Below, one piece after another: positions 2,876 through 8,231 of a stretch of 8,255 bases of DNA. The DNA comes from Candidatus Mcinerneyibacteriota bacterium (GTDB taxonomy: Bacteria > Macinerneyibacteriota > Macinerneyibacteria > Macinerneyibacteriales > DSCS01). Where the stretch lies: NCBI GenBank assembly GCA_016937175.1, contig JAFGWL010000043.1, positions 1 to 8,255 on the forward strand. Direction: 5' to 3'. Numbering within the stretch: the first letter of the stretch is position 1; every line of letters begins with the position of its first letter. A program made the translations under genes and the position numbers. Below the pieces are notes generated by a model that did not search any database, was not told the origin of the DNA, and worked only from the letters and a program-made list of their open reading frames with translations.

Positions 2876-3586
2876 TCACTTTTTTAAAGGCGTATACTCT
2901 TCCAGGGCGAAGTCCACTACCGCTTGAGCATGGATCTCCAGGGTGTTGAAAAGAGGGATCTCCGGTTTCCATTTTTTGATCAAAAGCGGGATCTCGGTAC
3001 ATCCCAGGACGATCCCGCGCGCCCCCCTTGAGACAAGCTTTCCCATCACTTCTTCCAGGAATACGCGGGACTCTTTTTTGAATTCGTTTTTCAACAGTTC
3101 TCCTGAGATGATCCGTTGGATCTCATTTCGGTCTTTTTCAGCCGGAACGATGACCTCGATGCCCTTCTGTTTCAATCTCTTTATATAAAAATCCATCTCC
3201 ATTGTCTGCTTGGTCCCCAGAAGGCCGCATTTTTTTATTCCCGACTCCTTCATCACGCGTCCGACAGCATCTGCAATATGAATGATGGGGACTGTCACAA
3301 TTGATTCCAGACGGTCGCTGAACTGATGTAGTGTATTGGCACAAAGGACGATCCCGTCAGCACCCCCTTTTTCCAGTTTCAGAGCGGCTTCTTCCACAAG
3401 GCGGTAGACGCCCTCCCGGTTCCCTGTCCTGTTCAAAGTTTCGATGTCCCCGTAGTTGAGAGAATAGAGGAGAAGCTTGGCAAATCTCAGGTCCCCCAGG
3501 CGCTGATTACTCTTTTCATTGATCAGACGGTAGTACTCCGCTGTAGAGACCCAACCTGTCCCCCCCACTAGTCCGGGAATTTTCAC
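2876..3586 (-). CDS. Aspartate/glutamate racemase family protein
   Basis: This 236-residue cytoplasmic enzyme belongs to the PLP-independent Asp/Glu/hydantoin racemase superfamily, where two cysteines at the domain interface remove and return the alpha proton. Both are present: Cys82 in LCANTLH (81-87) and Cys196 in GCTEIP (195-200). The N-terminus GLVGGTGWVSTAEYYRLIN (5-23) and TMEMDFYIKRL (128-138) match the aspartate-racemase/YgeA branch rather than MurI glutamate racemase. The substrate could be aspartate, glutamate or another amino acid; sequence alone does not settle this. The start is GTG, chosen because GGAGGTG lies four bases upstream and the glycine-rich first strand begins at once. 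It follows the unknown gene by 12 bases and is almost certainly cotranscribed with it. Length is normal and the gene looks intact. Confidence 0.9.
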   Translation of the reverse strand: MKIPGLVGGTGWVSTAEYYRLINEKSNQRLGDLRFAKLLLYSLNYGDIETLNRTGNREGVYRLVEEAALKLEKGGADGIVLCANTLHQFSDRLESIVTVPIIHIADAVGRVMKESGIKKCGLLGTKQTMEMDFYIKRLKQKGIEVIVPAEKDRNEIQRIISGELLKNEFKKESRVFLEEVMGKLVSRGARGIVLGCTEIPLLIKKWKPEIPLFNTLEIHAQAVVDFALEEYTPLKK

Positions 3587-3598: not shown

Positions 3599-4570
3599 TC
3601 ATTCAGGAATTGTAATGGCAAAACGGCAACGCTCATCCCCCGTGAGAACAGATTCGACGACTCTTACTGTTGTGGGTTTTTCAAATATAACATCAAACAG
3701 ATGTTTATTAAAGCCGCCTGAACAGGCACACCACAAACGGGGGATCTCTGCTGTCCCGTCAATGATCGCCGAACGGGCAAAACCGCAGTGGCAGGCATGA
3801 TACCTTTTCAGGAGAGGGTCTTTCTCCCGAAGATACGCCGGAGCATTAAAGGGAAATTTGGTCACAAAGATCTCTTTCCCCTCCCTTACCCCGCCAAGGA
3901 CTTCGGGATTATCATTGACAAAATCCACGACCTCCCGGGTGATCACCGTCTCATACCAGAGCTTGTTCTCCCTCCTGCAGCTGTCCAGCTCCTCGACTTT
4001 TCTCTTGTGATGATCTTTCAAAAAAGCATCGATATCCCGGCCCAATTCGATAAAGCGGTCCCGCTCTCCCCATTTTGACTCATCGGGAATCTCATGATGG
4101 TTCCCCGCCATGATGCGCCAGGCTGTCTTTTCATCGACAGTTTGATTCATCTGTTCCATCAACCGCTGGACCAGGGGAGGATACTTTTCGTAGGGAGTCC
4201 CGGTGGGAAGAGGGCCGATATTCTCAAACATCTTTCCTGCAGCTTCTTCTCCGGCAATTTCCATTGCGCTCTTTTTGATATGCTCCAGGACACCCAGAGT
4301 CCCGGCCAGTGTCAGGATATAGGTGATGAGATCCTTCTCATCTAAAAAGGATAAGTACCGGACAAGGGCCACCAGTCTCAGAAAAGCATCATCCTTTCCG
4401 GCGACTTTCTCCTGAAGATACCCCTTTAACGCCTGCCCCTTTTCCTCGGAGTCTCCCTCAAGGGATACACTTGCCGAAAAATCATCTGCGATAGTTACAA
4501 AAAATTCGAATCTTTCTTTTTCCTGGGGACGTTTCTCTAAAAATTCACGAAATTCTTTTTCTCTGTGCAT
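3599..4570 (-). CDS. Conserved-looking protein of unknown function with Cys/His-rich C-terminus
   Basis: I do not recognise this 323-residue protein with confidence. It has no signal peptide or membrane segment and should be cytoplasmic. The first two thirds look mostly helical and charged (a clear helical stretch at about 60-115), with the motif WRIMAGNHHEIPDESKWG at 151-168 carrying two adjacent histidines. The C-terminal part (about 255-323) holds HACHCGFA (258-265), WCACSGGF (280-287) and a final SVLTGDERCRFAI (307-319). His258, Cys260, His261, Cys262, Cys281 and Cys283 could form a metal site. The ending '-S-x-L-x-G-D-x-x-C-x-F-x-I-' recalls the C-termini of ATC (L-2-amino-thiazoline-4-carboxylate) hydrolase-like and V4R-like domains; this is a weak resemblance from memory, not an assignment. 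The ATG at 4570 has GGAGG six to seven bases upstream and a strong promoter. It forms an operon with the racemase 12 bases downstream. Confidence 0.85.
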   Translation of the reverse strand: MHREKEFREFLEKRPQEKERFEFFVTIADDFSASVSLEGDSEEKGQALKGYLQEKVAGKDDAFLRLVALVRYLSFLDEKDLITYILTLAGTLGVLEHIKKSAMEIAGEEAAGKMFENIGPLPTGTPYEKYPPLVQRLMEQMNQTVDEKTAWRIMAGNHHEIPDESKWGERDRFIELGRDIDAFLKDHHKRKVEELDSCRRENKLWYETVITREVVDFVNDNPEVLGGVREGKEIFVTKFPFNAPAYLREKDPLLKRYHACHCGFARSAIIDGTAEIPRLWCACSGGFNKHLFDVIFEKPTTVRVVESVLTGDERCRFAITIPE

Positions 4571-4619: not shown

Positions 4620-4695
4620 TGAGCAAAAAAAGAATGATACCATTTCATTATTGGCTTAAAAGGTACGATTTTTAGAATTGTTTTTATATCAATGC

Positions 4696-4723
4696 TTGAC
4701 AAATTACAATTTAGGTTTAATAT
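4696..4723 (+). promoter_or_regulatory. Predicted promoter of the MarR-family gene
   Basis: TTGACA (4696-4701) and TAATAT (4718-4723) are 16 bp apart. The start point would fall at about 4730, on or next to the ATG, implying a leaderless or nearly leaderless mRNA. An alternative -10, TACAAT at 4705-4710, lacks a good -35 at the right distance. The operator-like palindrome at 4701-4712 fills the spacer. Confidence 0.55.
4701..4712. promoter_or_regulatory. Operator-like palindrome 1 (upstream of the MarR gene)
   Basis: AAATT-AC-AATTT is an inverted repeat with 5-bp arms and a 2-bp centre. It starts at the last base of the -35 box and lies in the promoter spacer, a position suited to repression. 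With one more base (4713) it shares 13 identical bases with the kinase-gene site at 5381-5398. MarR-family dimers typically bind short AT-rich palindromes at such positions; binding here is inferred. Confidence 0.55.
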
Positions 4724-4729
4724 TTACTT

Positions 4730-5224
4730 ATGAAAACGAAAAATTTAAATTACCCGTTAACAGACAGGCTAAACATGAAAGTCGTAACCGAGATGGGCAA
4801 TGTAGCTGCGCTTATCGAAGAGATCCTTAAGCCCATGCTTCGGCCCCACAACATGGGGATTTATCAGTTCCGCGTCCTGGAAGCGCTTTTCCTTGAGGGT
4901 GACCTCCGTATAGGCGACCTGACGGAAATGACGCACACTACCGGGGGCAACATGACGGTTGTTTTGAGGAAACTGGATAAATCCAACCTCATCACGCGTG
5001 TGGTGGATCCCGATGATGGAAGGGCCTTCAATATAAGCCTTTCCAAAAAAGGGACCGCTGTCATCGAGAAACTTTATCCGGAGTATCTGAAACAGCTGGA
5101 AGAGAAGTTTTCCCCTCTTATCCGCAGTGAACGCGAAGAGTTGGGAAACCTTCTCAATAAGATCGCCGAGCCTCCGGTAAAAGAGACAGCGAAGCGGAAA
5201 ACCGGACGCAGACGTAAAGCCTGA
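4730..5224 (+). CDS. MarR-family transcriptional regulator
   Basis: This 164-residue protein has the dimeric winged-helix layout of MarR. An N-terminal dimerisation helix spans about 17-38. The helix-turn-helix spans about 58-86, with recognition helix TTGGNMTVVLRKLDKSNLI at 70-88. The wing carries DPDDGRAFNISLSKKG (93-108), matching the family's D-x-R wing signature. C-terminal helices follow at about 109-146, then a very basic tail (KRKTGRRRKA) that may add nonspecific DNA contact. Such proteins usually repress their own gene and neighbours and release DNA on binding a small ligand. Palindromes in front of this gene and of the kinase gene are the expected targets. The ATG at 4730 has no Shine-Dalgarno sequence. 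Met16 (codon at 4775) has a weak AGG six bases upstream and would still keep the fold, so the start is uncertain. The gene diverges from the racemase operon. Confidence 0.9.
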   Translation: MKTKNLNYPLTDRLNMKVVTEMGNVAALIEEILKPMLRPHNMGIYQFRVLEALFLEGDLRIGDLTEMTHTTGGNMTVVLRKLDKSNLITRVVDPDDGRAFNISLSKKGTAVIEKLYPEYLKQLEEKFSPLIRSEREELGNLLNKIAEPPVKETAKRKTGRRRKA

Positions 5225-5228
5225 CTTT

Positions 5229-5310
5229 CAGGAAGATGTCTCATCTTCTGCCGAGAGAAGACTTATTAATAGGGTAACGGATGTTTATACCCCGAAGTCT
5301 TTTCTTCCTG
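5229..5310 (+). repeat. Nested inverted repeats in the 3' region of the MarR gene
   Basis: Four inverted repeats are packed here: CAGGAAGA (5229-5236)/TCTTCCTG (5303-5310); AAGACTT (5258-5264)/AAGTCTT (5295-5301); GGGTA (5272-5276)/TACCC (5288-5292); and a local hairpin GAAGATG (5232-5238)/CATCTTC (5242-5248) with loop TCT. The first three nest into one long stem, while the local hairpin competes with the outer arm. None is followed directly by a U-tract, so a classical intrinsic terminator is not supported. The element may slow transcription or protect the mRNA 3' end. Confidence 0.4.
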
Positions 5311-5364
5311 CAAAAAGATGTTATCCAATACTGCTAAATTTTACGGCGCCTTTTTCTTTTTATC

Positions 5365-5393
5365 TTGAAAAACTCTAAATTTTAAATTACAAT
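5365..5393 (+). promoter_or_regulatory. Predicted promoter of the hybrid sensor kinase gene
   Basis: TTGAAA (-35, 5365-5370) and TACAAT (-10, 5388-5393) are 17 bp apart, each one mismatch from consensus. Transcription would start near 5400, about 12 bases before the ATG. The -10 box lies wholly within the 18-bp palindrome at 5381-5398, so a protein on that palindrome should block RNA polymerase. Confidence 0.6.
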
Positions 5394-5398
5394 TTAAA
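5381..5398. promoter_or_regulatory. Operator-like palindrome 2 (upstream of the hybrid kinase gene)
   Basis: TTTAAATT-AC-AATTTAAA is a perfect inverted repeat with 8-bp arms and a 2-bp centre covering the -10 box. It contains the 13-base sequence found at the MarR promoter. It is the longest and most symmetrical palindrome noticed in the window and the best candidate for a binding site of the adjacent MarR protein. It is flanked by CTCTA (5373-5377) and TAGAG (5400-5404), which are also complementary. Confidence 0.65.
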
Positions 5399-5411: not shown

Positions 5412-8231
5412 ATGATATCAAGGCGCTTGTTCATCTTTATCATCTTTTTGATGGCTCTTCTTCTGTCATCTTCCCCCTCCCTGTCTGCCCGGGCGCAAAG
5501 TCAGCCTGTCCGTGTGGGCGTCTATGAAAACAGGCCCCAGGTCTATACTGATAAAGAGGGAGAGATCAAAGGAATCTACATCGATCTTCTGAAACACATC
5601 GCCGAAGCGGAAGGCTGGCAGCTTGTCCTGGTTCACGGGACCTGGGAAGAGGGGCTGGCCCGTCTGAGAGAGGGAAAGATAGACATCATGACCAGCATCG
5701 CCTACACCAAGAGCCGTGAAGCCTACTTTTTCTTCTCTGATGAGACCGTCTTTGTCAACTGGGGGCAGGTCTTTGTCCAGGGGCCCGGAATCGAAGGATT
5801 CCCCGATCTGGAAGGCAAGACAATTGCTGTCATCAAAAAGGACATATACAATTCCGGAGAGAACGGGATACGGGACCTTCTACAAAAATTTAATATTCCC
5901 GCCACTTTTATCGAGGTAGATGATTATGTCGACGCTTTTATCGCCGTTGACAAGCAGAAGGCCGATGCAGCAGTGGTCAACCGCCTTTTCGGGGCCCTTT
6001 ATAAAGACCGTTTTTCACTTCGGGAGACAGCCATGATCTTCCACCCCAGCGAGATGCACTTCGCCTTCCCACGGGTTGGTGCACGAACACCGGCAATGAA
6101 AAAAGTGATTGATGATCACCTGCGCCGCCTTAAAGCCGATAAATCATCTGTCTATTACACAACTATAGCTCACTATATGAACCTGCCTTCCAGGACTCTC
6201 CTCTTTTCACCTCAGGCCATGAAGGTATTCTTCTTTATCAGCGCTCTGGCCCTGGCCCTACTGGCCATGATCTTTTTTATGCGACATCAGGTCAATATAC
6301 GGACAAGACAACTCAAAGAGAATGAGCAGCGTCTTGCCATGGCTCTCCAGGGGACCAACGCCGGCCTCTGGGACTGGGATATGAAGACCAATATTCTTAC
6401 GACTAACAGGATCTGGAGCGAGCTTATCGGCTACGAACCCGAAGAACTGATGCCCTTCACCATTGATACCTGGGAACGCCTGACCCATCCGGACGACCTG
6501 AAAAAAGCTCGGGAAAATCTTGCCCGCCATTTTCAGGATGAAAATATCCCTTACGACCTGGAGATCCGGATGAAACACAAGGACGGCTACTGGGTCTGGC
6601 TTATGGACCGCGGGAAGGTGGTCACCCGGGACAAGTCCGGCCGCCCCCTGCGCATGATCGGCACTCACATGGACATCAGCCAGTGGAAACATACCGAAGA
6701 AGCCCTCCTGGAAAGCGAACAGCGCTATCGCAGCCTTTTTGAAAACAATCATGCCGTGATGCTTCTTCTTGACCCCGACACCGGGAAGATCTTCGAAGCT
6801 AATCCCGCGGCAGTGCGTTTCTACGGCTATGCCCGGGAGACCCTGATCGGGATGAACATTAATCGAATCAATATACTTACTCCGGAAGAGATCCGGAAGG
6901 AGATGAACCTGGCCCGCTATTTCAAAAAAAGTTTTTTTGAGTTCAAACACCGCCTGGCTTCAGGGGAGATCCGCGATGTGGAAGTCTACAGCGGCCTGAT
7001 TCACTATGAAAACAAAAAACTCCTCTACTCCATCATCCATGATGTGACCGGCAAGAAGGAGATGGAGCAGGAAAAGGAGAGGCTGGAAACACAACTCAGA
7101 CGTTCCCAGCGTCTGGAGACAATCGGGACGCTGACTGGAGGGATCGCCCATGACTTCAATAATATCCTTTTGCCTATCATCGGTTATACCGATATGGCCC
7201 TCCAGAAGATCTCCGATGAAAAAGTCAAGGGATATCTCTCAGCAGCTTTGGCGGGGGCCAACCGAGCCAAAGACCTGGTCCGTCAGCTCCTGACCTTCAG
7301 CCGCCAGGCGGAACATGACAAGGCCCCGGTGGACATCTGCGAGATCGTCCGGGATTCGGTCCATTTGCTCAAGTCCCTTATCCCCTCTTCTATTACAATA
7401 AAACTAGATATCCCGAAGCAATGTAAATATATCTTTGCCGACCGGACTCAGATCCATCAGGTCATCGTGAACCTTTGTACCAACGCCGCCCACGCCATGG
7501 AAGAGACAGGCGGAACCCTCACCCTGTCAGTAGGCCATCGTCTCTTCACCACAGAGGCACAGACCCCCGCTGAAGGAATCGAACCCGGGAAAGAGTATCT
7601 GATCATCACTGTGACAGACACCGGCATCGGGATGACCGATGATGTCATGGAACATATCTTCGAGCCCTTCTTCACGACTAAAAGCATGGACAAGGGCACA
7701 GGAATGGGTCTTTCCATCGTACACGGGATCGTGACCAGTCACGAAGGCATCATCCAGGTCTCCAGCAGGCCGAATGAAGGCTCTTCTTTCACCCTCTATT
7801 TTCCTGTGGTCGATGCCATCTCCCCTTCAGAAAAGGAGCAACTGCCCCAGGCCAGGGGAGGATCAGAACGGCTTCTTCTTGTCGATGATGAAGAGGTCAT
7901 CACCCTGATGCTTAAAGAAGCCCTGACAAAACTGGGCTACCGGGTGACAAGTTTCTCAAAAAGCAGGGATGCTTTGGACGCTTTTGAAAAAGACCCCGGC
8001 CGTTTTGACCTTCTTCTCACAGACCTGACGATGCCGGAAATGACCGGCCTTACCTTGGCGAAGCATCTCCGTGACAAGAACCCGGGACTGCCGGTGATCA
8101 TTATGACCGGTTACGGAACTCTTCCGGAGGAAGAGTTTCCGCAGGGTCTCTCTAAAAACATCATCAGAAAGCCTTTTGAGCTCAATGAGTTGACAGAGCT
8201 GCTCCGGACTCTTCTGGATGGAAAAGTATAG
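5412..8231 (+). CDS. Membrane hybrid histidine kinase: SBP_bac_3-PAS-PAS-HisKA-HATPase-receiver
   Basis: This 939-residue inner-membrane sensor has a signal peptide or first membrane anchor (about 5-27). A periplasmic domain like type-3 solute-binding proteins (about 33-257) follows, with the Arg102 that normally grips an amino-acid carboxylate in TKSREAYFFFSD (99-110). A second membrane helix (272-290) leads to two PAS domains (about 306-426 and 436-546). The kinase core has phospho-acceptor His580 in GGIAHDFNN (576-584), N box Asn687/Asn691, G1 box DTGIGM (736-741), F box FEPFF (750-754) and G2 box GTGMGL (762-767). The C-terminal receiver (about 819-937) carries Asp825/Asp826, phospho-acceptor Asp871, Thr899 and Lys920. 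All residues needed for phosphorelay are present. No HPt domain, DNA-binding domain or partner regulator is visible, so output lies elsewhere. Binding of a small solute outside probably controls His580 phosphorylation. Expression is probably controlled by the upstream MarR protein. Confidence 0.95.
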   Translation: MISRRLFIFIIFLMALLLSSSPSLSARAQSQPVRVGVYENRPQVYTDKEGEIKGIYIDLLKHIAEAEGWQLVLVHGTWEEGLARLREGKIDIMTSIAYTKSREAYFFFSDETVFVNWGQVFVQGPGIEGFPDLEGKTIAVIKKDIYNSGENGIRDLLQKFNIPATFIEVDDYVDAFIAVDKQKADAAVVNRLFGALYKDRFSLRETAMIFHPSEMHFAFPRVGARTPAMKKVIDDHLRRLKADKSSVYYTTIAHYMNLPSRTLLFSPQAMKVFFFISALALALLAMIFFMRHQVNIRTRQLKENEQRLAMALQGTNAGLWDWDMKTNILTTNRIWSELIGYEPEELMPFTIDTWERLTHPDDLKKARENLARHFQDENIPYDLEIRMKHKDGYWVWLMDRGKVVTRDKSGRPLRMIGTHMDISQWKHTEEALLESEQRYRSLFENNHAVMLLLDPDTGKIFEANPAAVRFYGYARETLIGMNINRINILTPEEIRKEMNLARYFKKSFFEFKHRLASGEIRDVEVYSGLIHYENKKLLYSIIHDVTGKKEMEQEKERLETQLRRSQRLETIGTLTGGIAHDFNNILLPIIGYTDMALQKISDEKVKGYLSAALAGANRAKDLVRQLLTFSRQAEHDKAPVDICEIVRDSVHLLKSLIPSSITIKLDIPKQCKYIFADRTQIHQVIVNLCTNAAHAMEETGGTLTLSVGHRLFTTEAQTPAEGIEPGKEYLIITVTDTGIGMTDDVMEHIFEPFFTTKSMDKGTGMGLSIVHGIVTSHEGIIQVSSRPNEGSSFTLYFPVVDAISPSEKEQLPQARGGSERLLLVDDEEVITLMLKEALTKLGYRVTSFSKSRDALDAFEKDPGRFDLLLTDLTMPEMTGLTLAKHLRDKNPGLPVIIMTGYGTLPEEEFPQGLSKNIIRKPFELNELTELLRTLLDGKV

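Follow-up and report, generated by a model that had tools for sequence, protein, structure and literature searches.

Genes and promoters of the MarR-kinase locus

The analyzed window, i.e. the whole stretch of 8,255 nucleotides (contig JAFGWL010000043.1 of assembly GCA_016937175.1, from a Candidatus Mcinerneyibacteriota bacterium), carries a gene for a MarR-family regulator, followed on the same strand by a gene for a hybrid sensor histidine kinase and preceded by a divergent gene. The relatives compared were one congener (G001; DSCS01000005.1, isolate SpSt-1200, labelled Bacillota) and one order-level relative (G002). The features of the locus are listed below.

3599-4570, - strand: divergent gene with weak resemblance to DUF6144; adjoins the MarR gene in the congener too (68%)
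4677-4693, + strand: block ATTGTTTTTATATCAAT, just upstream of the MarR -35 box; 16 of 17 bases are the same in the congener
4696-4723, + strand: MarR promoter TTGACA-16-TAATAT (-35 at 4696-4701, -10 at 4718-4723), kept in the congener
4701-4713, + strand: copy 1 of the 13-mer AAATTACAATTTA, filling the -35/-10 spacer of the MarR promoter
4714-4729, + strand: alternative candidate operator GGTTTAATATTTACTT, on the MarR -10 box (9.0 bits, P about 0.055)
4730-5224, + strand: MarR-family regulator, 164 aa (Pfam PF01047/PF12802/PF22381)
5232-5248, + strand: hairpin GAAGATG-TCT-CATCTTC, just past the MarR stop codon, with no U run
5365-5393, + strand: kinase promoter TTGAAA-17-TACAAT (-35 at 5365-5370, -10 at 5388-5393), with a very short leader
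5381-5398, no strand: imperfect palindrome TTTAAATT-AC-AATTTAAA with 8-bp arms and an AC centre (8/9 pairs)
5384-5396, + strand: copy 2 of the 13-mer, over the kinase -10 box
5412-8231, + strand: hybrid sensor histidine kinase, 939 aa (SBP_bac_3 - PAS - PAS - HisKA - HATPase - receiver)

The MarR winged-helix domain of the regulator scored above the curated cut-offs (PF01047, 36.5 bits with a cut-off of 24.6; PF12802, 34.2 with a cut-off of 27), and MarR relatives with solved structures (9qdr, 2a61 and others) were found at E-values of 1e-9 to 1e-10. The protein is HpaR-like, yet its 53.2 bits against TIGR02337 lie below the equivalog cut-off of 121.2, and HpaR membership was rejected. The kinase has the HisKA, HATPase_c and receiver domains of a hybrid kinase together with an extracytoplasmic SBP_bac_3 sensor. 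A second kinase in the assembly (G000:C44:26971-29391) has the same SBP-PAS-kinase-receiver layout at 36-37% identity, and the congener encodes a corresponding kinase (G001:C17). The assembly yielded no SSU rRNA.

The divergent gene starts with an ATG (4568-4570) with GGAGG upstream, and the aligned codon in the congener is ATA (L031, about 4700-4720). The divergent ORF of the congener opens further in, pointing either to an unusual start codon or to a different start site there. An Asp/Glu racemase gene (2876-3586), located between the divergent gene and galE, is missing from the otherwise collinear locus of the congener.

Both promoters lie where the preliminary description of this DNA had placed them. 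The MarR -10 box ends 6 bp before the ATG, there is no Shine-Dalgarno sequence, and the spacing is identical in the congener; judged by this spacing, the MarR mRNA is probably leaderless. Leaderless genes seem to be frequent in this genome, since 17 of 140 ORFs without a Shine-Dalgarno sequence (about 200 aa or more, from crude ORF calls in 400 kb of sampled genome stretches) have a promoter with the -10 box about 5-8 bp from an ATG. The block at 4677-4693 is a candidate activator site, UP-element or second operator. Its ATTG-N9-CAAT pattern was rejected as a palindromic operator, the symmetry not being above chance (column shuffling, P 0.71).

The kinase gene has, as read from the two sequences, separate transcription signals in both species: a predicted promoter of its own and hairpins after the MarR stop codon. 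The hairpin in the congener is far stronger, with a 14-bp stem, a z-score of -5.6 for the stretch and no U run (L002, 1442-1472, - strand). No Rfam match to RNA elements was obtained.

A 13-mer shared by the two promoters

The preliminary description had reported one and the same 13-mer at both promoters, and AAATTACAATTTA is indeed present as two exact + strand copies, at 4701-4713 and 5384-5396. A whole-assembly search found no further exact copy in the rest of the 1,879,816 bases, and the symmetric core AAATTNNAATTT likewise occurs in just these two places. Copy 1 had been described as overlapping the MarR -35 box. It does so by a single base, while the bulk of the word sits in the -35/-10 spacer. 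Its symmetry is that of a 12-bp palindrome with 5-bp arms (core 4701-4712). Copy 2 covers the kinase -10 box TACAAT at 5388-5393, as had been stated, but the surrounding sequence at 5381-5398, TTTAAATTACAATTTAAA, is not the perfect 18-bp palindrome claimed, because its AC centre is non-palindromic. Since the placement differs, spacer in one case and -10 box in the other, the 13-mer is not merely a shared promoter box.

A wider regulon was considered and rejected: besides the lack of further exact copies, a search for TTAAATTNNAATTTAA with two mismatches gave only five matches, none with the exact core. The order-level relative has a resembling word, CAAATTACAATTTAAA, which was judged to be a chance occurrence: it lies in non-coding DNA past an hflX-like gene, on the 3' side, the genome is AT-rich, and no MarR ortholog accompanies it.

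When both intergenic regions were shuffled with dinucleotide composition preserved, a shared exact word of at least 13 bases was obtained in 17 of 5000 trials, and when the AT-rich promoter-proximal parts alone were shuffled, in 44 of 5000. Among real promoter-type intergenic regions of the same genome, taken from the 400 kb sample, 0.37% of random pairs share a word of at least 13 bases, and in the 48 neighbouring pairs no shared word exceeds 11 bases. The sharing is thus above chance (P about 0.003-0.01 per promoter pair, uncorrected, in AT-rich DNA). Palindromes as good as the kinase copy are found in about 6% of shuffles. The repetition had been called unlikely by chance, and so it is for a given pair; it is unusual rather than extreme, because many possible coincidences had been scanned. 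The choice was made post hoc after a scan of the whole window, for which we estimate that a correction of perhaps tenfold is due.

Comparison with related loci

Two scans of genome contigs for further orthologous MarR-kinase pairs returned the same congener alone, and viral contigs gave none. The divergent, MarR and kinase genes follow one another in the congener as they do in the window, with identities of 68, 73 and 65%, respectively, and both core promoters are retained. Identity is 87.5% over 64 bp for the MarR promoter and 68% over 65 bp for the kinase promoter, which reads TTGTCA-17-TATACT in the congener.

The palindromes, on the other hand, which the preliminary description had expected to persist in relatives that keep both genes, have diverged in this one congener. 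At the MarR promoter AAATTACAATTTA is replaced by AAATTACAAATAA, with loss of the right palindrome arm. At the kinase promoter TTTAAATTACAATTTAAA is replaced by TTCAAATTATACTTGAAA, where three of the eight arm pairs no longer match, and the aligned place holds TTTCAAATTATACTTGAAA, whose symmetry axis is displaced by half a base. Only AAATTAYA is retained at both sites in both species. The two promoters of the congener, taken alone, share no 13-bp word above chance (P 0.25), their best match lying elsewhere, and the joint two-species signal for a shared word (P 0.013) stems from the window species alone. Column shuffling gave no significant palindrome conserved in both species at either promoter. 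One would expect a strict operator to have been kept, because the MarR recognition-helix core THTTGGNMTV, like the RVVDPDD stretch, is identical in window species and congener. As far as the aligned sequences of a single relative go, the comparison mostly runs against a shared operator.

The 100 bp upstream of 21 MarR genes from other phyla were also scanned for a common palindrome. The encoded proteins are about 34% identical to the MarR protein of the window, and the genes lie beside YceI genes where checked. Most of the 21 carry an upstream palindrome near ATAGTTTAACRTTAAACGAT, found de novo, with summed motif scores of 263-304 versus 154-162 in shuffles (widths 18-22); the comparison thus yielded a clear operator motif for the MarR-YceI subfamily. 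The motif sits mostly 10-20 bp upstream of genes of the MarR-YceI type, in several phyla. A literature search joining MarR, YceI, palindromic and operator found no paper.

Measured against this operator, near AGTTTAAYRTTAAACT, subfamily members reach +10 to +19 bits and the two 13-mers -28 and -32, and the 13-mers were rejected as instances of it. Its best match in the window is instead GGTTTAATATTTACTT at 4714-4729, a rival operator candidate by sequence. The match is marginal (in the congener 4.5 bits, P 0.38), and it abuts the MarR start codon, where subfamily members tend to have their site as well.

Proposed control of the kinase by MarR and its alternatives

The most likely single reading, which we hold tentatively and at somewhat less than an even chance, is that the 13-mers are shared operators through which MarR controls itself and the kinase, with coincidence ranking next. 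From the arrangement we infer binding and repression by MarR, a ligand and an effect on sensing, as follows. The MarR protein, whose gene lies between the two words, would use both as AT-rich operators of low symmetry. In its own promoter, with a probably leaderless transcript, a dimer bound between the -35 and -10 boxes would cause autorepression, and a dimer on the longer-armed copy over the kinase -10 box would repress the kinase; at both positions RNA polymerase would be occluded. A ligand would free the DNA of MarR, and both genes would then be relieved together.

This reading is favoured because the exact repetition is confined to two places in 1.88 Mb, with a chance of 0.003-0.01 per pair, because the regulator gene is of the MarR family, because the congener keeps the MarR-kinase order, both promoters and AAATTAYA at both sites, and because an imperfect promoter palindrome of 12-18 bp fits known MarR operators, MarR-type proteins commonly binding palindromes of 16-20 bp (PMC10458429). 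It is disfavoured because the congener loses an arm at the MarR site and shifts the axis at the kinase site despite the identical helix core, because the mutual match of the congener promoters does not exceed chance, because the distant MarR relatives use an operator that the 13-mers do not resemble, and because the two regions are rich in AT and the coincidence was chosen post hoc. Of the earlier proposal that MarR sets the level of the kinase, the family assignment and the restriction of the word to two promoters thus stand, while the palindromes did not hold in the congener. Since only the AAATTAYA half is common to the sister species, the site, if real, would be either loosely specified or recently sharpened.

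A serious contender, though not one to which we would give even chances, is chance combined with ordinary promoter constraint: the match would be coincidental, MarR would repress only its own gene through 4714-4729 or 4677-4693, and the kinase would be free of MarR. The failure of the repeat and palindromes to persist in the congener, the frequency of equally good palindromes in shuffles (about 6%), the preference of the distant-relative operator for 4714-4729 over the 13-mer and the conservation of 16 of 17 bases at 4677-4693 all argue for it. However, it is uncommon for two neighbouring promoters to have in common a 13-mer that the rest of the genome lacks, and the match at 4714-4729 is marginal (P 0.055), weak in the congener (P 0.38), drawn from MarR proteins that are only about 34% identical, and overlaps the -10 box, which favours a match anyway.

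It is improbable that the 13-mers serve as operators for another regulator, or as sites for a nucleoid or AT-binding protein, that co-controls MarR and the kinase, e.g. a response regulator acting downstream of the kinase. In favour of this, the word stands at the two promoters only, the hybrid kinase lacks an output domain within the window and needs a partner to act, and many other kinase and receiver proteins are encoded in the assembly. A regulator encoded elsewhere, however, usually has some further genomic copies of its site, the first of them at its own gene, and here there are none; nor does independent evidence point to a particular protein. Still less probable is control of the kinase by MarR through read-through or non-identical sites, e.g. 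TTTYAA-N7-TTKAAA at 5380-5398, with the exact 13-mer being incidental. The MarR and kinase genes are collinear neighbours in both species, and a 19-bp axis at the kinase -10 box holds 6/9 and 7/9 pairs in the two species. Yet the two-species conservation of this palindrome was not significant by column shuffling, TTTNAA-N7-TTNAAA is common (13 and 29 places in the two genomes), and hairpins follow the MarR stop codon in both species while the kinase has a promoter of its own.

The proposal of shared MarR control can be carried further, and becomes rather doubtful in that form: a local MarR protein, through an operator pair used nowhere else, would set its own level and that of the kinase, one signal would gate the sensing of another, and the operator would turn over fast despite an unchanged helix. 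The gating of sensing by a ligand is purely conjectural here. If true, the locus would show in compact form, and in a little-studied lineage, how a one-component regulator gates a two-component sensor, and it would be a case of operator turnover between sister species.

Two-component loci under MarR-type control are already on record, and the gain would be one more example with a putative ligand. HpaR of Xanthomonas campestris, of the MarR type, controls the two-component locus vgrRS (PMC10458429), and SarA of Staphylococcus aureus, of the SarA type, controls agr (PMC10332168). As in the arrangement proposed here, these are one-component winged-helix proteins that act directly on a two-component locus; in contrast, targets and operators are others, the genes are not adjacent pairs, and binding was experimentally shown. 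PchR (YvmB), a MarR-family protein of Bacillus subtilis, binds a 14-bp palindrome at its own promoter and at others (PMC4992311). It resembles the present proposal in that short palindromes lie on its own promoter and on those of neighbouring or other genes, but its operator is GTTYMMYMGTAAAC, demonstrated by gel shift and fusions, and its targets are biosynthetic genes and the gene for a Spo0A-P phosphatase rather than a sensor kinase (PMC4992311). The closest distant relatives found are the MarR-YceI proteins, which share about 34% identity and a similar recognition helix, [ST]GGN[LIM]T; where checked, however, a YceI gene rather than a kinase gene adjoins them, and their promoters have AGTTTAAYRTTAAACT, not AAATTACAATTTA.
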